From a virus: 33,018 nt of DNA. The stretch is taken from positions 1 through 33,018 of IMG/VR virus record IMGVR_UViG_3300026479_000029; one strand, given 5' to 3'. This document shows, piece by piece, positions 9,310-30,925 of the stretch. The first letter of the stretch is position 1; each line of letters starts with the position of its first letter. The notes beneath the pieces were generated by a model. It was not told where the DNA came from. It did no database searches and was given only the letters and a program-made list of their open reading frames with translations. A program made the position numbers and the translations under genes.

Positions 9310-10596
9310 TTATTGCGGCATCTTTAAAAAGACTTTCATCGAATCAACATCGATTCTTGTAATCTGTACCGTGATTGGGTCACCAGCTTTAAATACGCTC
9401 ATTACTTCTTCACTTAATTCGCTAACATGTAGCAAACCAGTCACTCCATCTTCTATTGTGATAAATAATCCGTAATCCTTTTTAGTTTTAACAGTAGCTT
9501 GTACCACAGAAGGAATTTGATATCTAGAAATAATATCTACCCATGGATTAACAACTATATTTGCCTTTTGAGTTAATGTTATTTTAGTATTACTTATAAT
9601 ATCTTTAACCATAAATGAAATTTCATCACCTGGTTTAATTTCTCTGGCTCTAAACTTGGCTAATGTATCTTCATCTAAATCATTATTATGAATCATACCA
9701 GTTAAACACTTATTAAATTCTACAAATACTCCGTATTTTGCAGTACCCGTAACATTTCCAGTCACTGTTTCACCTTGTGTTTGTTTTAAGTTTTCAATTT
9801 CTCCAGGTATTAAAGCTTGTAAATATTTTCTATGAGAAACTACTAACGTACCTCTATCCGGTGAGAAACTAACAGGAACTACATACATTTCCGTTCCAAT
9901 AATAGAACTAAAGTCATGTAGTTTATTAATTCCAGCTAAAGATCCTGGCATAAAACATTCTATGCCTTGTACCATTACCATATAACCTCCATTTTCAATC
10001 ATATTTGTAACTGTACCGACCCACGCTGTGTTTCCTTCTTCAACTGCAGCTCTAAGATCCATAAACACTTTGTGTTTAACACCACCATTAATACTACCAA
10101 CAATATGTGAGTTTTTACCCAATTGTGTAATTAGTACAGCGGTGTCATCACCTGGTTTTAGCGATTGAATTTCAGCAGGTTCTTTATCATACTTGACGTA
10201 GATCAATTCCCTGTAACCAATATCAACGCTAATAAACTCAGAATTAATTGCATAAATTTTACCTTCATGAATTTCACCAGGATTAATTACAGTCAGTAAT
10301 TGTCCAATACTAGCATCATGTGCAGTAAGCATGTCATACATTTCTTGGGCATAAGATTCCCTAGAGTAGACTTTATCGCCGTCTTTGGTTTTAATGTGTG
10401 GATTTGGTTTTCTTGTTCTTGACGGGCAAGTAGACTCATATGCATCCCACATGAATTCCCCGTTCTCATCATAAAATGCTTGATTAGCATCTTCTTCAAT
10501 TTCTGTGTTTTCGATTTTTACATCTAGTTCTTCAACTACGGTCTCTTTTGGTGTCTTTTCCCCAATTCTGATCCTTTTGTTTTTTTCGTTGTTCAT
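9310..10596 (-). CDS. Protein with four S1 RNA-binding repeats
   Basis: This 428-residue protein has an acidic N-terminal ~95 residues followed by four S1-type OB repeats, at roughly 105-170, 190-258, 275-344 and 362-426. Repeats 3 and 4 are the clearest: GNVTGTAKYGVFVEFNKCLT then GMIHNNDL, and ATVKTKKDYGLFITIEDGVT then GLLHVSEL, each ending in a strand of the VKDIISNTKITLTQK or ITRIDVDSMKVFLK type. Ribosomal protein S1 uses such repeats to hold mRNA at the ribosome; bacterial S1 normally has four to six. Host S1 is usually longer. The gene sits between two virion-type genes and is probably expressed late. It could aid phage mRNA translation or bind nucleic acid in or near the virion. The domain call is strong; the role is inferred. 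Confidence 0.85.
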   Translation of the reverse strand: MNNEKNKRIRIGEKTPKETVVEELDVKIENTEIEEDANQAFYDENGEFMWDAYESTCPSRTRKPNPHIKTKDGDKVYSRESYAQEMYDMLTAHDASIGQLLTVINPGEIHEGKIYAINSEFISVDIGYRELIYVKYDKEPAEIQSLKPGDDTAVLITQLGKNSHIVGSINGGVKHKVFMDLRAAVEEGNTAWVGTVTNMIENGGYMVMVQGIECFMPGSLAGINKLHDFSSIIGTEMYVVPVSFSPDRGTLVVSHRKYLQALIPGEIENLKQTQGETVTGNVTGTAKYGVFVEFNKCLTGMIHNNDLDEDTLAKFRAREIKPGDEISFMVKDIISNTKITLTQKANIVVNPWVDIISRYQIPSVVQATVKTKKDYGLFITIEDGVTGLLHVSELSEEVMSVFKAGDPITVQITRIDVDSMKVFLKMPQ

Positions 10597-14601: not shown

Positions 14602-16509
14602 TTATTTTTTTTGCATATTTTGGACGTTAGGGTCTTGTTTCGATGGATCTAAAAATGCTTTAGCTTCATTTACAACTCCGCCCTCATCTAATATTGTATT
14701 TGTTCTAATTCTAGGGTCACCTCTATATACTTCAGCACCACTTGCATCAAATACAACTATTCTCAACATATTACCAGTTATTAATATTTCATATACATGT
14801 GGCGTTGACTCTGGTGTAGGTTCCGGTGTAGGCTCTGGTGTAGGCTCTGGTGTAGGCTCTGGTGTTGGTTCTGGGGTTGGTTCTGGTGTTGGTTCTGGAG
14901 TTGGTTCAGGTGCTGGTTCCGGGCTATTTTCAGCCACATTATCTGCTTTTTCTTCATCAGTAGCATCTTCAAGTCCAGGTGGATTAATTAGATTTTCTGT
15001 TCTTGTTGGCCATTCTCTTCTAAGAAGTATCATTGTTTGTTTTGTGACATCTTCTTCTACTTCATATATAATACTTTCAATTATATAATAACCTGACAAA
15101 AATGAATCTAAAGATTGACTTGGACTATTTTTACCAACATCTGCTAAATCTTCACTAGCTTCTTCCAATCCAAAAGGCTCATCTTTATCCATGCCTAATT
15201 CTTTTTTATCACCTTTAATTCTTTCGTTTTGTTGTATGGCTTTAGGGTTAGTAATATACATTAAAACAGGAATCTTTTGATATTTATATAAAGATGGATT
15301 AAATGAATTTAAAGTAACTTCTAATTTCATTTTTTGTGTTTCAGCCTCATTTTGTGCATTGTGCAATTGTGAAAATGCAGCATTGGGGTGTACGTTACCC
15401 AATCCATCATCACCGGCCTCTTGTCTTCCAATATACTTATATTTGATTTGATCAATATGTCTTTTATCATTTCTATTACCCTTTAGTGGCTCTTCTAATT
15501 CTTTTAAATCATTTCCACCTAAAGACTCTATTCTAAATTCTTGTTTTCTCTCACCAGCATCACCGTTGTTATTATAAATAGTTACTTCTCTGGCATATCC
15601 GTTTTTTGCACTAACATTTGCAGAATTATTTAATATATTAGATTTCTCTATAAATGAACTATTTCCCATAAAAGCAACATGATTTGTCAATAGTAATGGT
15701 ACCTCAATGTCGTTTCCTGTTTTAGCATTTTTTTCAGCATCAGTTGTAGCCACCATTGATTCAGCAGCTGAAGCCAATGATTCAGCAAATTCTTCTATCG
15801 GTGGATTAGGTGAATTAAACAATGCATTTACATCTACGTAATTCATATAGTAGTATGGATCGATCCAAAACTTTTGAAAAGATTCTTCACCTATATAACT
15901 TTCTTTGATTATCTTTTTTATAAAACTAAGATATGGTTCAAACGCCATAATTCTAGACTGTGCATCGTCAGCCGCATCAATATTAGTTGCTAAACCCAAT
16001 TCTAAGTCTCGGGCTACTTCTTCCATATGAGTTAAAGAATCTGCACTTTCAAAATTTCTACAATCTTCGGCCTGCATTCTAGGAATTTTACAAACTCCAA
16101 ATATTTCAAATACAGCAGTTCCAACATTTCCATCTTTTGGGGATTCACAGCTTATAATATCAAAATCCATATGAATAGATTTAAATGTTTCTTGATTTTT
16201 AGAATTTATAAGTATTGTGAAGAAATCACCATCTCTTGGATAACTACCAACTGCAAATTTTCCAGCTTCGTCGCTCAATTCAATTTCACATTCTGGTAAA
16301 TCACCCATTAAATTTAACTCAAAACGTATAACGTCAGTCGGTGCAAATTGATAACCATTAATAAGTATAAATGGTTTAAGAGTTGCAACCATAGTAGATT
16401 GCTTGTACTCTGCCTCGTCTTTCTTTTCTTCAGCAAGTGCATCCATCTTGATCTCAGTTGGCCTAATCGCTGGTTCTACAACTGCTAATATATTGTTAGA
16501 TAATTCCAT
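14602..16509 (-). CDS. Baseplate hub protein (gp27/gpD-like) with EPTP-repeat linker
   Basis: This 635-residue protein has the layout of hub proteins that sit between tube and spike. Residues ~45-175 form a beta-rich domain (LKPFILINGYQFAPTDVIRF, then FFTILINSKN), followed by a hub-like segment with SLTHMEEVARDLELGLATN, then SFIKKIIKESYIGEESFQKF and WIDPYYYMNYVDVNALF, typical of the region where hub proteins form their second tube-like domain. A central beta region ends around residue 505 at MILLRREWPTR. Then comes a linker, residues ~531-570, of eight EPTP units flanked by EPAP and ESTP, and a small C-terminal domain of ~65 residues. Homology to gp27/gpD is judged by pattern only. The linker and extra domain are unusual. 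Confidence 0.65.
   Translation of the reverse strand: MELSNNILAVVEPAIRPTEIKMDALAEEKKDEAEYKQSTMVATLKPFILINGYQFAPTDVIRFELNLMGDLPECEIELSDEAGKFAVGSYPRDGDFFTILINSKNQETFKSIHMDFDIISCESPKDGNVGTAVFEIFGVCKIPRMQAEDCRNFESADSLTHMEEVARDLELGLATNIDAADDAQSRIMAFEPYLSFIKKIIKESYIGEESFQKFWIDPYYYMNYVDVNALFNSPNPPIEEFAESLASAAESMVATTDAEKNAKTGNDIEVPLLLTNHVAFMGNSSFIEKSNILNNSANVSAKNGYAREVTIYNNNGDAGERKQEFRIESLGGNDLKELEEPLKGNRNDKRHIDQIKYKYIGRQEAGDDGLGNVHPNAAFSQLHNAQNEAETQKMKLEVTLNSFNPSLYKYQKIPVLMYITNPKAIQQNERIKGDKKELGMDKDEPFGLEEASEDLADVGKNSPSQSLDSFLSGYYIIESIIYEVEEDVTKQTMILLRREWPTRTENLINPPGLEDATDEEKADNVAENSPEPAPEPTPEPTPEPTPEPTPEPTPEPTPEPTPEPTPESTPHVYEILITGNMLRIVVFDASGAEVYRGDPRIRTNTILDEGGVVNEAKAFLDPSKQDPNVQNMQKK
14801..14920 (-). 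repeat. Ten tandem 12-base units encoding an EPTP linker
   Basis: Ten 12-base units lie in tandem. Eight encode Glu-Pro-Thr-Pro, with one EPAP unit at the N-terminal end and one ESTP unit at the C-terminal end. Three neighbouring units are identical (plus-strand form ggtgtaggctct) and others differ at one to three bases, consistent with growth by slippage. The product is a stiff, extended, acidic Pro-rich spacer between the hub body and a small C-terminal domain. The copy number is likely to vary between related phages. Confidence 0.9.
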
Positions 16510-21859: not shown

Positions 21860-22780
21860 TTAGTTACCTCTTCTAGTATTAGATCCACTTTTTCTAGTTG
21901 TCGTAGTTGGTCTAGAATTATTCGTGGGTCTTGTGTTATTGTTATATGTAGGTCTTGTGTTATTGTTTCTAATTACTGGCCTTGTATTATTCCTAGGTCT
22001 TGTATTATTGTTTCTAATAACTGGTACTCTCGGCTTCTCTCTAATAACCCTAGGTTTTGTATTGTTATTAACTGGTGTGTTTTGATTTAGATATACTCTA
22101 GGTTTTGTATTAGTCCTAGTATTAGTGTTAGTATTGACTCTGGTATTAGTTCTAACTCTTCTATTATTAACTACTTCATTACTAATTGAACCTCTTCGAC
22201 CATTAACACGTACCGTATTTGATCTATTTCTATAGTATGGCACGTTAGTACCTCTATATCTACTATAGAACCCATTGTTCCAGCCCCAGTTATTATAGTA
22301 ACCATTTCCATAATAAACATTGCCCATCCAGTTGTTATATCCCCAACCGTGATTATTCCAACCATAGTAGACTCCATAGCCCCATCTATCATATCCAAAT
22401 GGTGACCATCTATGAGGAGAGCCCCAAGAATTCCAGCCTGTATAACCCCAAGCCCAATCATTCCACATCTGATCTCTATTCCAACTCCAATAATAGTTAT
22501 TCCATCTAGAATCATATCGCCTTCCTAGTAATCTATTATTCCAATCAAACGATCTCGGTTGACTCAAAGCATATCGTGCAAAGTCCAATCTAAAACCTAT
22601 ATCTGTTCTTAATTTATTTCTAAACTGAAATTCACTTAATGTGTCTATCTTAACATCATCTGAAACCACTATATAATTTTCGTCTTCATATATTGGATCA
22701 TGGTTAAGCGTAGACAATTGCCAACTGGCTCCGCATGATGATAACATAATTAACGAGATAATTGCAAGTAGTTTTTTCAT
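21860..22780 (-). CDS. Putative lipoprotein, Trp/Asn/Tyr-rich, flavobacterial type
   Basis: This 306-residue protein starts with a lipoprotein signal: two Lys, a hydrophobic run and the lipobox L-S-S-C at residues 13-16, followed by GAS, so it should be lipidated at Cys16 and exported. Residues ~20-80 form a small globular region (YIVVSDDVKIDTLSEFQFRN). Then come ~110 residues extremely rich in Trp, Tyr, Asn and Gly, and a C-terminal ~110-residue low-complexity tail with Asn/Thr/Arg/Pro repeats (RPRNNTRPVIRNNNTRPTYN). Bacteroidetes genomes carry similar lipoproteins of unknown role, sometimes misnamed prolyl-tRNA synthetase; that resemblance suggests acquisition from such a host. In a phage it might alter the cell surface or block superinfection (inference). 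Confidence 0.75.
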   Translation of the reverse strand: MKKLLAIISLIMLSSCGASWQLSTLNHDPIYEDENYIVVSDDVKIDTLSEFQFRNKLRTDIGFRLDFARYALSQPRSFDWNNRLLGRRYDSRWNNYYWSWNRDQMWNDWAWGYTGWNSWGSPHRWSPFGYDRWGYGVYYGWNNHGWGYNNWMGNVYYGNGYYNNWGWNNGFYSRYRGTNVPYYRNRSNTVRVNGRRGSISNEVVNNRRVRTNTRVNTNTNTRTNTKPRVYLNQNTPVNNNTKPRVIREKPRVPVIRNNNTRPRNNTRPVIRNNNTRPTYNNNTRPTNNSRPTTTTRKSGSNTRRGN

Positions 22781-25621: not shown

Positions 25622-26104
25622 TTATAACGTTTCTATTTTGTTGTTTTTCATCCATGCATCTAGTTCTCTTTCTGCTCTGTCGAAAAGTTTATTTCTGTTA
25701 ATATTTAATCCAAATGAATTAAAATAATTTTTCATTAGATAGTACGCAGGTTCTACTGATTCTTCATTAGCAACCATATCGCTAACATGTTTCGAAACTT
25801 CATATGCATAATAGGCTGATTTTTCTGCCATAGGGTTTGTCATAGCATTATAGAATTCTCCACCATAAAATTTACCTACTATATCTCCAAACTTTTGCTT
25901 CATTTCTATCCATGAAATTCCTTCTAATCCAATCCATAATTTAGCTTGAACCGCCTTAGTATCTTTTCTAATAAAACCTTCCTTTGCCATATCCTTAGAT
26001 ATCTCTATGATCTTCTTGGGAATCGGTAGTTTACCGTTATCTTTTTCCCAGTCCTTGATCTCTTTATCATTTACAAATGATTCAAATAATTTAATGTATT
26101 TCAT
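25622..26104 (-). CDS. Protein with MKYIKLFESF tag, otherwise unknown
   Basis: This 160-residue protein starts MKYIKLFESFVNDKEIKDWE. The first ten residues match the tag shared by neighbouring genes, and L-F-E fits the (L/I)-x-E pattern cut by T4-type prohead proteases. The rest is mostly helical, with ELDAWMKNNKIETL at the end and several aromatic residues (AKLWIGLEGISWIEMKQKFG, YYAYEVSKHVSDMVANEE). I recognise no enzyme family. Its neighbours suggest an internal head protein that may be ejected with the DNA, but that is inference. The gap to the upstream gene is 4 bases. Confidence 0.65.
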   Translation of the reverse strand: MKYIKLFESFVNDKEIKDWEKDNGKLPIPKKIIEISKDMAKEGFIRKDTKAVQAKLWIGLEGISWIEMKQKFGDIVGKFYGGEFYNAMTNPMAEKSAYYAYEVSKHVSDMVANEESVEPAYYLMKNYFNSFGLNINRNKLFDRAERELDAWMKNNKIETL

Positions 26105-26108
26105 ATTA

Positions 26109-26795
26109 TTATGCCTTTGATCTTTTTTTAATCGTCTTTAGCTTTGCTTTCAAAGCTAATTGGTTTTTTTGAACAGCTATTTTCATGCCATCAACAGAAG
26201 TTTGTTGCATTTGTGATTTTAACAATGCCGTTTCTATTTTATCAGCTGGTTCTTTTGATTTATCTTTAGACATCTTATTTATTTTCTCAATAAAATCTTT
26301 GTTTTTCTTAGATAAACTCTTTTGTTTTTTAGAAAGATCTTTTATTTTTTCTTTATCTGTTTTTGGTTTACTTTTCTTTTTCTCTAGAATAAATTGATCT
26401 AAAGATAAAACACTAACCATTTCTTCAACTTTACTCATCTTTTTAGATAGTTCCATTGCCCAATCAACTCCTTCATCTCCACCCCATATTAACCAAGAAA
26501 CATAACCTTTATCTTTCCATGGAGTTTCTTTTAATTCAGGTTTAATAGATGAATTTTTTCTATGTCTATTAAATGAAGCCATACGTTTTACTGTATCTCC
26601 AGATATGTTTTCACCTTTAGCTAATTGATGTGCTCTTGCCCAACCAACTGCAGTTCCAGCGTCCACTTCTTCGCGACCATACTTTTCTTTCCAATCGATT
26701 GCCATTTGAGCATTTTTCTTTGCCGCTTCTGGATAATCGCTGTAAGTATCGTCATCTCTGACTTCAGATTCTAAAAACAATTTAATATACTTCAT
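26109..26795 (-). CDS. Tagged protein with conserved phage domain and Lys-rich coiled coil
   Basis: This 228-residue protein starts MKYIKLFLESEVRDDDTYSD, the shared tag with one extra Leu. Residues ~20-125 form a domain I recall from many phage head-region proteins: YPEAAKKNAQMAIDWKEKYG, AVGWARAHQLAKGENISGDT, KRMASFNRHRKN, then WLIWGGDEGVDWA. Its function is unknown to me. Residues ~150-228 are very Lys-rich and helical (KKKSKPKTDKEKIKDLSKKQ), and follow the sequence D-Q-F-I-L-E-K, which matches the (I/L)-x-E cleavage pattern. A basic segment suits binding packaged DNA. The start context ATATATAATACATGAA is shared with the metallopeptidase-like gene. Confidence 0.65.
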   Translation of the reverse strand: MKYIKLFLESEVRDDDTYSDYPEAAKKNAQMAIDWKEKYGREEVDAGTAVGWARAHQLAKGENISGDTVKRMASFNRHRKNSSIKPELKETPWKDKGYVSWLIWGGDEGVDWAMELSKKMSKVEEMVSVLSLDQFILEKKKSKPKTDKEKIKDLSKKQKSLSKKNKDFIEKINKMSKDKSKEPADKIETALLKSQMQQTSVDGMKIAVQKNQLALKAKLKTIKKRSKA

Positions 26796-26798
26796 GTA

Positions 26799-29759
26799 TT
26801 ATATATTTTGTTTTCTGTGTGATTGATCAAAGTAATTCTGTTCCTTTAACCCGTCATCATGACCTTCATCTCTAACTTCTTTAGCGACATCTTTATCAGC
26901 ATCTCCCCAAGTTCCTTTACCTTTTGTTAAAAATGCATTTACTCGAGCATATCCCCATTGTTGTTCAGTTGCACCAGGTCTATGACCAGTTTTCCATGCT
27001 GCCATTCCTCTTCTCATAATAATTCTAATGATACCAATTGGCACACCAGTTTCTTCTGATTTTGTCTTAAGTGCTTTTTCAATTTTAGGATCACTGATTG
27101 GACCTCTATCGCCTTCAGCCTTTTCTAGAATAACACATTCTGCCAATTCTTCCTGAGCAAATGTATTATATTCTTTTGACCATGCCTTCCATTTAGATGG
27201 TCTAGCATAATCAGATAAAATCATATCAATAGCATCTGGTTGAGAAATCTGAGAATTAATATCGTTCCATACTTTATCTGCTAACCATCTACCAGCTTTT
27301 GCGTTTAGATAATATAGCGCTCCAGCATCTGAGAACTTCCAACCCCTTGTCAATATTCCCCATACATCGTTCCATATTTCTTCAATTTCATAAGTGTCCA
27401 TATGAACATCTAGAGTTCCCCAAAAACCATACATTTGATTAATATCATCAGCGTCATATTGTTTTTTCATACCGAATTTAAAATTAGGCACTTTACTTTC
27501 TGTAATTAAATCTTCGTTTAACTTTACTAATAAAGAATTAAAAAATCTGGGTGATAAAGATTCTACGAATCCTCTTTCTTCAGCATCATTCTCTATCCAC
27601 TCTCTGTCTTTAGAAGAAAGTTTTTTATAATCTTTATCAAATCTGTGATGTGCTATTAAATCATAAATATCTTCTAAGTTATAATTACCTTCATTAGCCA
27701 TTTTCATATCGATCCAAACTCTAATAATATCTGCATAATCTTTAGCAGTTAATTTTGTTTTATTACCCCAAGTTGTTCTATCATTAAGATCAAACATCTG
27801 TTTAGCAAACTTATCAATATTACCAGATTTAAAATATATTGTAGCTCTTTGTCTTCCATTATCTAATAATTCCCAAGTTTCTTCTCTATCATCATGTGGA
27901 TCTAATCTCCAACCAGCTGAATGATTTACCCTAATATCACACAAACTTGAATTACTATCAACTTGTACAGTCCAATGACCAGAAGATTGATATGTTTTTC
28001 CTTTAGCATATTTAATCTTTTCTTCATTAACTACTGATTCTTCAAGAGTTGAAACAAAGTCAAATAATATTTTACCTTCTTCTCTACCTCTTAAATCAAT
28101 TAAAAGTTCTTCAGAAGCTGGACCCATGTTTTCCCAACGTTTATCAGTTTTTTGAATTCTTCCTAATTTAGGTTCTTCTTGAAAAACATAAATCATTTGT
28201 AATTTATCTCCTAATCTAACGCCGACGGCATCACCTTCTCTTTTTGAAAAGTAAATATCACCATCATTACCTGGTTTAGAAAAATCAGTTGATGTGTGTT
28301 TAGCTCTTTCGTTAACTACTGATTCATATACTGAATATCCATTGGATCTAGCAAAAACACTAGACTCATCGTTCCATTGTTCTTTAGTACTACTTATTGA
28401 AACTTGCATATAATTCTTTGCACCTAAATCTGGCTGTATAAGAAAAACTAAATCATCACTACCAACATAAAGATCCCAATTTCTACCTGATTTTTGAGTT
28501 AGTAATAATTGAAAATTAGAATCTAATTCATTTTTAAGTTGTCTTGTATTTGGAAAGCTTCCACGACCTGTAGAAAAACCATCTCTGTATTCTAGTTCAT
28601 CTCCAAAAGAAAGTTGATCTACAAATTTTTGTAATCTTTCTTCTTCATCTTTCTCAAAATAAAACTCATTAACTTGAGATTCAGTAAGACCTAATGATTT
28701 ATTAACTAGATCTACAATCACACTAGAGTAATCGTCCTTCAAAGCCCATTTAATTGTTTGACCCTGACTTCTTGCTTTTTTGTTTATCCATTTAAGATGC
28801 GTTGCATCAGTAAGAAACTCGGAAGCTTCTTTTGCAATTCTCTTTGGATCCTTTTTCCATTCTTCAATAGTAGTGCCAAAGTTATTACCGTATGTAGAAC
28901 CATTAGTTCTTTTAAGGTTATTGATTCCACCAATCTTAATGTATATGTCATTATTAATAGGCATTGCTTCAAAGAAAACTACGTCTCTTTCACTTGCATC
29001 ATTTTCTCCAGATACTTGATCAATAGCATAAGTACTATGAACTCTCCATGTAGGTTCGCCCTTTACGTTGTACGGTGCTGAGTGTGTATCTCCACCGAAT
29101 TCAGAAGCTTTTAACTTATATGCTTTAGCTTCAGTAACTACTGATTCTAATATCTTTGAATTTTTATCTATTGAAAAGATAGTTTCCTCTTTTCTTATAA
29201 TAGAAATTCCCTTAAATGTTGGTTTGTTAAAATATTTGTTGTTTCCGTTCTCGTATCTTTTTAATGAAGGGTGATCTGCAAACACACCGCCCGGAATGTT
29301 GTATATAATAGTTCCCTTTGGTAACACTATATTTGTATAATTACCAATTTGAACACCTTCAATATCTTTTTTTAATTTATATTTTCTATTATCTAAAGTA
29401 TATGTACCTCCACTCATAGTACCTGAGTTTGGTCTAAATGTTGCTTCATCCACTGACTCATCTTTTTTATCACCATATAATTCATGATATTTCTTTACAT
29501 GCTTAGATGTTTTAACTTCACCTTTTTCTCTAGCTTCTTTATCACCTGGCATTTCTTTATATGCACTAGAATCATCGTCATCCATGTCTGATTGTTTTTT
29601 TATCTGATCTTTTTTATCTTCAATCTCATCGTCATCTAATCCTCTGTGATATGGTTTTGGACCAGGTTTTGCTTCTGACAAATAGTATGCAGTATACTCT
29701 TCTCTTGTCATGTTTAGTTTTGCGGCTTGCATTCCTAGGAAATCGTTAAAATTGCTCAT
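26799..29759 (-). CDS. Large multi-domain protein, candidate internal-head polyprotein
   Basis: I place the start at 29759 (MSNFNDFLGMQAAKLNMTRE, 986 residues), 10 bases after the upstream stop; an in-frame ATG 75 bases earlier overlaps that gene. A motif recurs between globular segments: ESVDE at 101-105, ESVVTE at 205-210, ESQVNE at 360-365, ESVVNE at 479-484 and ESVVNE at 574-579. YLSE at 26-29, LITE at 751-754 and VILE at 876-879 also fit (L/I/V)-x-E. The same motif type forms the N-terminal tags of neighbouring genes. The last ~100 residues hold a known phage domain (GMAAWKTGHRPGATEQQWGY, then ARVNAFLTKGK; probably DUF5824). The simplest reading is a chain of six to nine segments separated by prohead-protease-like sites. 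Cleavage is inferred. Confidence 0.75.
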   Translation of the reverse strand: MSNFNDFLGMQAAKLNMTREEYTAYYLSEAKPGPKPYHRGLDDDEIEDKKDQIKKQSDMDDDDSSAYKEMPGDKEAREKGEVKTSKHVKKYHELYGDKKDESVDEATFRPNSGTMSGGTYTLDNRKYKLKKDIEGVQIGNYTNIVLPKGTIIYNIPGGVFADHPSLKRYENGNNKYFNKPTFKGISIIRKEETIFSIDKNSKILESVVTEAKAYKLKASEFGGDTHSAPYNVKGEPTWRVHSTYAIDQVSGENDASERDVVFFEAMPINNDIYIKIGGINNLKRTNGSTYGNNFGTTIEEWKKDPKRIAKEASEFLTDATHLKWINKKARSQGQTIKWALKDDYSSVIVDLVNKSLGLTESQVNEFYFEKDEEERLQKFVDQLSFGDELEYRDGFSTGRGSFPNTRQLKNELDSNFQLLLTQKSGRNWDLYVGSDDLVFLIQPDLGAKNYMQVSISSTKEQWNDESSVFARSNGYSVYESVVNERAKHTSTDFSKPGNDGDIYFSKREGDAVGVRLGDKLQMIYVFQEEPKLGRIQKTDKRWENMGPASEELLIDLRGREEGKILFDFVSTLEESVVNEEKIKYAKGKTYQSSGHWTVQVDSNSSLCDIRVNHSAGWRLDPHDDREETWELLDNGRQRATIYFKSGNIDKFAKQMFDLNDRTTWGNKTKLTAKDYADIIRVWIDMKMANEGNYNLEDIYDLIAHHRFDKDYKKLSSKDREWIENDAEERGFVESLSPRFFNSLLVKLNEDLITESKVPNFKFGMKKQYDADDINQMYGFWGTLDVHMDTYEIEEIWNDVWGILTRGWKFSDAGALYYLNAKAGRWLADKVWNDINSQISQPDAIDMILSDYARPSKWKAWSKEYNTFAQEELAECVILEKAEGDRGPISDPKIEKALKTKSEETGVPIGIIRIIMRRGMAAWKTGHRPGATEQQWGYARVNAFLTKGKGTWGDADKDVAKEVRDEGHDDGLKEQNYFDQSHRKQNI

Positions 29760-29769
29760 GTTGTTTTTA

Positions 29770-30225
29770 TTATTTTGGTAATCTAACCATAGTATCTTTA
29801 GTTTGGCTTTTATCTGTATTCTTGACAAAATCAAAGTTTTTATAAAACTTATTTAATCTAGAAATAGAAGTTGCACCAAAATCTTTAGAAGGTGTTAGAT
29901 ATATTTTTAAATTTTGTGTGTCGGCATAGTCAGTAATTCTTGACATAACCTTAGAACCGATTCCTTTATTTCGGTCCTCTTTTTGTATTTTTATTTTACT
30001 AAGTTGTAAGTATTTACCGTTATCATATAAATCTAATTCTATATTGAATTGATCTTCTAATTCCTGTAAGATAAATTGTTCTCCTAAAATAGGTGTATTA
30101 TCATGATTACATTTATGACAAATAAACACATCGTGTCCACCGTCTTCTATTTCCCAAGACCAACCACAGTTATCACAAGATACCTTGTTTGCTGTAAACT
30201 CTTCGAATAGTTTTATGTATTTCAT
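29770..30225 (-). CDS. Tagged zinc-ribbon plus GNAT acetyltransferase-like protein
   Basis: This 151-residue protein starts with the shared tag MKYIKLFEEF. A zinc ribbon follows: C17-x2-C20 and C36-x2-C39 in CDNCGWSWEIEDGGHDVFIC then HKCNHDN, a module I recall from many phage proteins. Residues ~55-150 are a short GNAT fold with strands (KYLQLSKIKIQ), the acetyl-CoA loop R85-N-K-G88-I-G90, a helix (SKVMSRITDYADTQ) and a C-terminal Asn/Phe-rich end (RLNKFYKNFDFVKNTDKS). It may acetylate a protein or small molecule; the target is unknown. If the tag sends it into the head it could act in the host at infection start (inference). It starts 1 base after the upstream stop. Confidence 0.78.
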   Translation of the reverse strand: MKYIKLFEEFTANKVSCDNCGWSWEIEDGGHDVFICHKCNHDNTPILGEQFILQELEDQFNIELDLYDNGKYLQLSKIKIQKEDRNKGIGSKVMSRITDYADTQNLKIYLTPSKDFGATSISRLNKFYKNFDFVKNTDKSQTKDTMVRLPK

Positions 30226-30226
30226 A

Positions 30227-30925
30227 TTAAAATTTAGGTATACCTCCTATTTTTGCTGCTCTTCGTCTCCAAAGATCTAATACTTGTTCTCTTTCTTCGT
30301 CGTTAATAACACCCTGTTCCTGTTGCGTATCTAAATATCTACGAACAGTATCACTCATGTTTTCTTTTCTCTTCTTAGCCTCATATCTTAATCCTTGTAA
30401 ATTAGCATCTACCTCTTTAGGTAACATTAGATATTGAGATTTTGGTAAAAGTCCCATTTTTATATAGGCTCTTAGTTCACTATCGTCTTCATTAGGTTTG
30501 CCGTTTCTGTAATTTCCAGTGTCAATCCCATCTTGTGTAATATGTTCCATTTCATGGCGAACAACATCCGCTAAATGAAAATATACTGTTGACCATTCTC
30601 CTGGAATCCACTCAGGATTTAAAGCAAAGTCTATAATAATATAAGGTGTTTGAAAGTCACCGTGATCATCATCGTCTCTGCCATCGGCACCTGTTGAATC
30701 TAATACTTGAAATCCTTCATATTTTTTATCAATATCAATAGTAGCTTCAATATCAAACTCTAAACCTCTCTCTTCAATTTGGTCTCCATAATTTATTGTA
30801 GCGTTCCCGCCTTTATATGATTTAACCCATTTATTGAATATAGCTTTAGTTAATTTAGAAGCTAATCCGTCATATGCAGATCTTCCTTCACCAATAAAAC
30901 TTTCATATGTTCTAATATGTTTCAT
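30227..30925 (-). CDS. Tagged HExxH metallopeptidase-like protein
   Basis: This 232-residue protein starts MKHIRTYESFIGEGRSAYDG, a variant of the shared tag, where F-I-G-E fits a prohead-protease site. The zincin motif V-V-R-H-E-M-E-H-I-T puts H124, E125 and H128 at the metal site; E171 in LPKEVDANLQGL is a candidate third ligand. An acidic Asp-rich loop lies at residues ~80-90. The C-terminal ~60 residues are basic and helical (YEAKKRKENMSDTVRRYLDT, then LWRRRAAKIGG). It is likely a zinc peptidase, target unknown; the candidate third ligand should be checked by structure. It follows a terminator, so a promoter must lie within the preceding ~40 bases. Confidence 0.75.
   Translation of the reverse strand: MKHIRTYESFIGEGRSAYDGLASKLTKAIFNKWVKSYKGGNATINYGDQIEERGLEFDIEATIDIDKKYEGFQVLDSTGADGRDDDDHGDFQTPYIIIDFALNPEWIPGEWSTVYFHLADVVRHEMEHITQDGIDTGNYRNGKPNEDDSELRAYIKMGLLPKSQYLMLPKEVDANLQGLRYEAKKRKENMSDTVRRYLDTQQEQGVINDEEREQVLDLWRRRAAKIGGIPKF

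Follow-up and report, generated by a model that had tools for sequence, protein, structure and literature searches.

The window analysed here, 33,018 nucleotides (nt) corresponding to positions 1 to 33,018 of the IMG/VR virus record IMGVR_UViG_3300026479_000029, is a piece of a marine myophage in which nearly every long open reading frame (ORF) lies on the minus strand. One of these, at 26799–29759 (ATG at 29759), encodes an uninterrupted protein of 986 amino acids (aa), P0001, in which a short motif, the spacer, recurs between separate modules. Judging by sequence, P0001 is probably a head-packaged, protease-processed polyprotein built of recombining cassettes: the polyprotein form of the internal proteins of T4. 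We lean, with less assurance, toward a coding repeat with two roles—a double prohead-protease site and a homogenised DNA recombination joint—that would make the chain an array of injected proteins into which further pieces can be plugged without fixed limit. What we infer is the cutting, packaging and injection, along with the recombination pathway and an anti-defence role of the modules.

Modules are exchanged at the spacers

The spacers of P0001 begin at residues 101 (ESVDEA), 205 (ESVVTEA), 360 (ESQVNEF), 479 (ESVVNER) and 574 (ESVVNEE). In 2000 residue shuffles the strict pattern ES.?V[TN]E averages 0.0035 occurrences (maximum 1) and the looser ES.?[VIL].E 0.16 (maximum 2), against four and five, respectively, in P0001.

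Searching viral contigs with P0001 gave 12 loci: L001 (100% identity, an 88-kb contig), L002 and L003, which match over the full length, and nine others that share one or a few pieces, the best segment being 81–92% identical and mostly around residues 205–369. The ORFs in these nine are chains of different modules joined by the same type of spacer. P0001 or near variants of it thus come from three metagenomes, those of L001, L002 and L003. By blastn, L002 has 95.7% identity to the window over nt 1–1082 and 96.8% from nt 1719, and between those points, which coincide with spacers 3 and 5, only the spacers themselves match. L003 is 93.3% identical as far as residue 214, four codons beyond spacer 2, where another module replaces residues 211–359; it is 96.0% identical over nt 1077–1452, a stretch that begins at spacer 3 and closes with spacer 4. 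L003 then has no counterpart of residues 485–573 and aligns again from spacer 5. Whole modules have been swapped or lost, and DNA similarity breaks off either at a spacer or no more than a few codons away.

The proteins of G001, P0001 among them, are otherwise mostly colinear: among those that have a homologue and measure 150 aa or more, 7 of 42 were flagged in comparison with G003 and seven with G002. P0001 was flagged in both comparisons and a second polyprotein (765 aa) in one; the other flagged ORFs encode large proteins of a 79–87 kb region, a repeat-bearing protein of the baseplate region, and short or acidic proteins. Module M05 of P0001 is 92% identical in L004–L007, whereas the untagged proteins of a colinear relative, G005, are only about 29–71% identical to those of the window. 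In G007, P0001 is the sole window protein (1 of 20) with a homologue, through M05 at 89%. This indicates that modules have moved horizontally.

The arrangement is not confined to these loci. A DNA pattern degenerate at third positions, GARTCNGTNGTNAMNGARGCNAAR, found at least 119 stretches, each picked through one TCN-serine spacer, which introduces a mild bias. A looser text pattern gave 134 ORFs with two or more spacers, or 89 after collapse (more than 85% covered at 93% identity); since protease-scaffold frames, three at least (L215, L216, L221), and possibly overlapping pieces of one protein remain among them, these are not 89 independent polyproteins. Loci L172–L212, from a scan of cellular genomes, were excluded from every polyprotein set. 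Among the 89, internal ends of protein alignments fall at a spacer in 288 of 473 cases, where 500 shifted controls average 96 (standard deviation 14, maximum 141); for DNA alignments the figure is 364 of 470, and for shifted controls 83 (standard deviation 17, maximum 143). Alignment pairs are not independent, so these counts give direction and size rather than an exact probability. The internal modules (n = 227) have a median length of 77 aa. They form 65 families of two or more members, 40 of which are found with at least two different neighbours on each side; a first clustering over-chained the modules, and reciprocal coverage was used instead. Three contigs of 234–236 kb share the same seven spacers, and G044 (234 kb) encodes two polyproteins, of nine and three spacers, amid eight genes that by eye are tagged. 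The cellular-genome scan found 41 stretches, about 15 of them expected by chance on a hand estimate, and for that reason no host is deduced from it.

The spacer is conserved as DNA

Across 178 distinct spacer contexts, silent sites are strongly biased. The serine is TCA in 141 of 178 (background 0.37), or in 141 of 175 within TCN (background 0.49, p 1e-17). The valines are GTA in 119 of 133 (background 0.42) and GTT in 155 of 178 (0.50), the threonine is ACT in 90 of 96 (0.52) and the alanine GCT in 86 of 116 (0.43), with no skew in the codons for asparagine (AAT/AAC) and lysine. Strongly conserved residues of a single module family, M06, have top-codon fractions of 0.64–0.91; spacers that join different modules are about as alike, therefore, as residues of one family. 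Spacers within an ORF resemble each other more than spacers of different ORFs do (1.99 versus 2.56 mismatches per 18 nt; 0 of 1000 permutations). A degenerate 18-nt spacer pattern occurs in 9 of 11 records, and the same pattern backwards in 0 of 11.

By eye, the spacer core, in the window at 29127–29147 and in the consensus, contains an imperfect palindrome, TCAGTA-GT-TACTGA, with 6-bp arms, which the favoured silent codons make possible. Integron-like gene-cassette arrays are marked by a structured recombination site and a recombinase of their own.

The spacer as a candidate protease site

Upstream of the first Glu of the spacer, position −2 (P3) is Leu, Ile or Val in 126 of 225 spacers, versus 41.8 expected (p about 9e-36), and the remaining positions from −8 to −1 have no such excess. 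With this enrichment the spacer reads as a double site, hydrophobic-x-E/S-V-V-[TN]-E/[AGS]-K. Residue P1′, which lies within the repeated DNA, is Ala, Gly or Ser in 181 of the 225. Similar sites appear in the protease and capsid proteins: of 12 protease loci examined with a text pattern, seven gave a start, with LLILE (five) or LLIVE (two), and of 11 capsid loci nine gave a match, all with KLYE[DE]A around residue 45. Both fit hydrophobic-x-Glu, and cleavage would be predicted there.

Spacers alternate with targeting-type tags

The targeting sequence of T4 has aromatic residues at positions 4 and 7, a hydrophobic residue at 8 and Glu at 10. Mullaney and Black assigned residues 4 and 7 to targeting, and 8 and 10 to processing (PMC9026906). 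The N-termini with which spacers alternate resemble a T4-like pattern of this kind, F-x-x-F-[IVL]-x-E. Module M06, present at 29 loci, has a spacer before it at some, while others start directly with MKKIKLFEEFIAE, MKRIKLFEEFVTE or MKHIKTFEKINE, and at several neither spacer nor tag is intact. Altogether 24 modules or families occur inside chains and also right behind N-terminal sequences of 40 aa or fewer, some of which are not tag-like. Glu stands three residues past the second aromatic residue or Leu in 99 of 180 tag-like starts, a few of these probably not being real tags, and P3 in the 99 is Ile (36), Val (31), Leu (23) or another residue (nine), which makes 90 of 99 Ile, Val or Leu. Complete tags with a methionine of their own (for example MKTKFIYESFSEFVENKLNE) occur in mid-protein in seven ORFs, including three that closely resemble one another, and look like whole genes fused in. 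For a set of modules, the end of the spacer is, as far as sequence can tell, equivalent to the end of the tag.

An earlier note on this DNA had described the five ESVVNE-type motifs of P0001 as lying between what look like separate small domains, as if tagged proteins like those of the neighbouring genes had been joined head to tail. The motifs do exceed shuffles by far; the breakpoints of L002 and L003 and the alignment-end counts place them at module boundaries; they are conserved between modules of different families; the neighbouring tags are real; and modules that alternate between spacer and tag contexts, along with the mid-protein tags, bear out the joining. Beyond what the note had said, the spacer proves to be conserved as DNA, marks recombination joints and reads as a double cut site.

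Head genes in the lineage

A gp21-type protease (Peptidase_S77 above cut-off) was found in 17 of 34 records: 3/8, 10/17 and 4/9 in three sets, of which the 17-record set was hand-picked and mainly long, and the nine-record set holds eight of the 29 M06 contigs plus LR756500.1, chosen for its capsid protein. With LR756500.1 excluded, it occurs in 9 of the 11 records that reach 100 kb or more (not G010 or G028), all reached via a spacer or module, and in 7 of 22 shorter ones; two of the records, G004 and G005, are the same phage. A Gp23 match occurs in 3/8 and 8/17 records. G005, colinear with the window (homologues for 16 of 20 proteins tested), has both Peptidase_S77 and Gp23. A polyprotein of G026 stands between portal and protease, flanked by one extra ORF on either side, and in G007 one comes two ORFs after the capsid gene. 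Among the best 15 of 1491 matching records, the G007 major capsid protein is closest to that of a 462-kb uncultured phage (50%), then to Prevotella Lak phages. As spacers occur in contigs of 234–236 kb, their carriers may be jumbo phages. Jumbo phages with predicted Bacteroidota hosts and a prohead core protein protease are described in a 2025 paper on aquatic moraphages.

Several further features of these genomes were seen. An ORF between the capsid gene and the polyprotein of G007 (L018:2714-3400) is glycosyltransferase-like by eye, and the final part of that polyprotein (L020:10666-12414) has a long GTSGKDK repeat. The protease lineage is common, with at least 577 relatives among 600 candidate stretches. 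In 13 of the 17 Peptidase_S77 records the protease domain is part of a frame of 570–831 aa, the rest of which is scaffold-like (coiled coil by eye; loci L013–L015, L215–L222, L265 and L261); the frames of G013, G025, G026 and G030 are short (197–205 aa). G010 (L067, L090; 175 kb) has several spacers and neither a Peptidase_S77 nor a Gp23 match; it may be part of some larger genome, or have a diverged head module.

A proposed mechanism, and what weighs against it

We propose that an N-terminal capsid-targeting tag would carry the P0001 chain into the prohead core, where the gp21-type protease of the lineage would cut each spacer, as hydrophobic-x-E/SVV[TN]E/[AGS], and free up to about nine pieces to be packaged and injected alongside the DNA. 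The spacer DNA (GAATCAGTAGTTACTGAAGCT) would also serve recombination between short homologies, phages acquiring, losing and exchanging cassettes at this joint. An incoming module would therefore keep the reading frame and be flanked by cut sites, and any cassette that recombined in would automatically be targeted, released and packaged.

A number of observations tell against this scheme. The start of P0001 has F4, F7 and L8 at the key places of the T4 targeting sequence, but M10 instead of Glu, a departure from the canonical tag, which the neighbouring genes and many other tag-like starts do fit. T4 prohead protease prefers Leu or Ile at P3, unlike the second site of the spacer, which has Val, a residue that does occur at P3 in 31 of the 99 tag-like starts. 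Raised Leu, Ile or Val at P3 is seen, too, in the control Glu-Ser pairs that these proteins have elsewhere than in spacers (175 of 419); these may be degenerate sites or a sign that the signal is less specific. The (L/I)-x-E class in P0001 is at chance (11 versus 10.0 expected; 829 of 2000 shuffles equal or exceed it), so the further sites that the earlier note had listed at 26–29, 751–754 and 876–879 gain no weight from count alone; each is, nonetheless, supported as a module edge by one relative. An alignment to L071 starts at residue 28, a tag-like sequence of L155 stops at the position that matches residue 754, and L071 has a spacer, ESNINE, directly before the equivalent of residue 880. 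The note had overlooked one more edge, E690 (KMANE), where L008 and L012 have a spacer.

Genomic context is a second difficulty. The same note had suggested a search for a prohead protease: one exists in the lineage, colinear G005 included, but Peptidase_S77 was not found in the window contig, and the 88-kb twin has neither a Peptidase_S77 nor a Gp23 match, both contigs being fragments. The expectation that polyproteins generally adjoin the protease was rejected: ORFs that bear at least two strict spacers within 10 kb are absent from all 80 protease-centred loci, more than 20 of which carry an identical protease sequence, and 10 of the 80 have one strict spacer, versus six for the reversed motif. 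The strict DNA spacer is present in only 6 of 19 protease-lineage records, and the relatives G005 and G034 have variant spacers. The spacer system is thus patchy, and lies mostly away from head genes.

Pfam searches and the full-length model are the third. DUF5824 is the only Pfam match above curated cut-off in P0001 and eight related polyprotein ORFs, the L001 twin included, and the model of full-length P0001 (32 rows) has a mean predicted local distance difference test (pLDDT) score of 40 and is usable only for M06 and part of the C-terminal module. Badly aligned or replaced rows, among them L071:1049-1276, L071:2954-3298, L155 and L164, were left out of the alignment for folding. Modelled alone, M06 reaches a mean pLDDT of 81, and, in favour of the note, which had proposed structure prediction, the flanking spacers of this one well-modelled module are in low-confidence ends, outside the folded core. 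In a fold search M06 had no match in the PDB at E 0.001 and a single match in a viral library, to an uncharacterised protein of Virus NIOZ-UU157. Pfam found neither known polyvalent effector or LPD domains nor a peptidase domain in the same nine ORFs, and PHROGs gave almost no matches to the polyproteins. Against named phages, P0001 matched seven records (HTVC008M twice, Melnitz-type phages four times, Phage C48C1), only within residues 832–970, and three other polyproteins had no match by tblastn. In the HTVC008M and Melnitz proteins, of which those above 400 aa were viewed whole, the repeated spacer was not seen, apart from one ESSLIE in Melnitz.

Alternative explanations

Spacers might be recombination joints and flexible linkers, nothing more, in a protein of many domains that stays intact, in the virion or in the cytoplasm, as a polyvalent protein would. 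Silent-site conservation requires a cause at the level of DNA, which protease specificity does not supply, and an intact injected protein of many domains is known: the virion RNA polymerase of N4 is packaged unprocessed (PMC5512222). We find this rather unlikely, however, for the hydrophobic residue at P3 lies upstream of the repeated DNA and yet is enriched over different modules, and the joint falls where targeting-type tags have their processing end.

Alternatively, the prohead protease might cut the chain as a sacrificial core or scaffold whose fragments leave the head, as with gp22, gp67 and gp68 of T4, where gp21 reduces core proteins to small peptides (PMC9958956). The polyproteins of G026 and G007 do adjoin head genes. 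For core proteins one would expect conservation, whereas these modules are diverse and swapped; some also exist as single tagged proteins, and M06, the one modelled, is folded. This we regard as distinctly improbable. As for a general habit of domain linkers, or chimeric assembly of the sort that can occur in metagenomic contigs, with a spacer that has no function, both are very unlikely given the breakpoints at spacers, protein and DNA alignment-end counts there far above shifted controls, and an architecture repeated in independent samples (the three 234–236 kb contigs; L001, L002 and L003 from three metagenomes).

Comparison with known systems

The nearest parallel to the packaged polyprotein that we favour is in T4, where IPI, IPII, IPIII and Alt begin with a short tag of the kind that many starts here resemble, aromatic residues three apart and then hydrophobic-x-Glu, for gp21, a Peptidase_S77 enzyme; a gp21-type protease and a gp23-type capsid occur in the lineage of the window, too. 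The T4 proteins are single genes, each with a targeting sequence, whereas here many modules stand behind one start with spacers between. Across T-even phages the internal proteins are described as diverse defence proteins of which only the targeting sequence is conserved (PMC3012670), and IPIII of T4 influences host range (PMC9391042). T4 also remodels its gene content under defence pressure through short-homology recombination, with segmental amplification (eLife 2022, PMC9391042), but there the short homologies are no dedicated repeat, whereas here a coding spacer is repeated and its silent sites are conserved.

Polyvalent proteins (Iyer et al. 2017, PMC5512222) likewise have many domains per chain and mosaic architectures, as found here, are predicted to be delivered with the DNA, and have been likened to the polyproteins of eukaryotic RNA viruses. 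For them an embedded metallopeptidase was proposed to release the parts, in contrast to the repeated site of separate-protease type seen here. In head proteins of SPN3US and phiKZ the prohead protease cleaves behind the Glu of a short motif, and does so more than once in long propeptides (PMC5694885, PMC10052503); those cuts remove propeptides, however, whereas the sites in P0001 divide exchangeable modules. No description of a spacer-joined cassette arrangement was found in the literature searched, outside of which most subscription papers lay; polyvalent proteins were the nearest concept.

Features of P0001 and neighbouring genes

Coordinates are collected in the table. The small tagged genes next to P0001 start MKYIKLFESF, MKYIKLFLES, MKYIKLFEEF and MKHIRTYESF. 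Elsewhere in the window, gene matches include wedge and hub proteins of the baseplate, a head-tail adaptor, a helicase, dCMP deaminase and UvdE. The T4 late-promoter pattern occurs 10 times in the window versus 8.0 expected, which is chance level. A baseplate-region protein (14602–16509) has a (PTPE)n repeat close to its C-terminus; the product of 21860–22780, lacking any PHROGs or Pfam match, has by eye a lipoprotein-like start (MKKLLAIISLIMLSSCG) and then a long low-complexity region rich in N, R, T, Y and W; and an ORF among the tail genes (9310–10596), without a PHROGs match, has by eye several S1 RNA-binding repeats.

Table. Features of P0001 and adjacent tagged genes, in window coordinates
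Feature	Positions	Strand	Basis or remark
Putative cassette polyprotein P0001, 986 aa	26799–29759	−	translation, relatives
Residues 1–29: start MSNFNDFLGM, then first candidate cut YLSE29/AK	29673–29759	−	module edge in L071
Spacer 1, ESVDE, residues 101–105	29445–29459	−	motif and module edge
Spacer 2, ESVVTE, residues 205–210	29130–29147	−	exact DNA consensus GAATCAGTAGTTACTGAAGCT at 29127–29147
Spacer 3, ESQVNE, residues 360–365	28665–28682	−	DNA breakpoint with L002, L003
Spacer 4, ESVVNE, residues 479–484	28308–28325	−	DNA breakpoint with L003
Spacer 5, ESVVNE, residues 574–579	28023–28040	−	DNA breakpoint with L002, L003
Degenerate edge MANE690/G	27690–27701	−	spacer here in L008, L012
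Double hydrophobic-x-Glu site KLNE749/DLITE754/S	27498–27521	−	matches tag-like sequence of L155
Site ILE879/K	27123–27131	−	spacer ESNINE here in L071
Module M06, residues 106–204	29148–29444	−	29 loci; folded core modelled, mean pLDDT 81
Module M05, residues 211–359	28683–29129	−	89–95% identity in five other aligned contexts
Module M41, residues 366–478	28326–28664	−	families, breakpoints
Module M33, residues 485–573	28041–28307	−	missing from L003 exactly spacer to spacer
C-terminal module, DUF5824 (PF19141), residues 880–986	26802–27122	−	Pfam; L071 edge
Stand-alone tagged gene	26109–26795	−	77% identity to internal polyprotein module of L010, L012, L071
Stand-alone tagged gene, MKYIKLFESF	25622–26104	−	37–40% to C-terminal polyprotein module of L010, L012, L071
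Stand-alone tagged gene, MKYIKLFEEF	29770–30225	−	51-residue stretch (zinc ribbon by eye) inside L071 polyprotein, 43% identity
Stand-alone tagged gene, MKHIRTYESFIGE	30227–30925	−	without match in polyprotein set

Significance

Proteins packaged in the head can be the first wave against host defences, and yet in phages they are mostly unknown. If spacers do mark freed, packaged pieces, then the 65 small, uncharacterised module families are predicted to be injected proteins, possibly anti-defence ones, that can be listed simply by reading the spacers. The arrangement, if true, would be a phage counterpart of the viral polyproteins that are cut by a maturation protease, one with in-frame module exchange built in.

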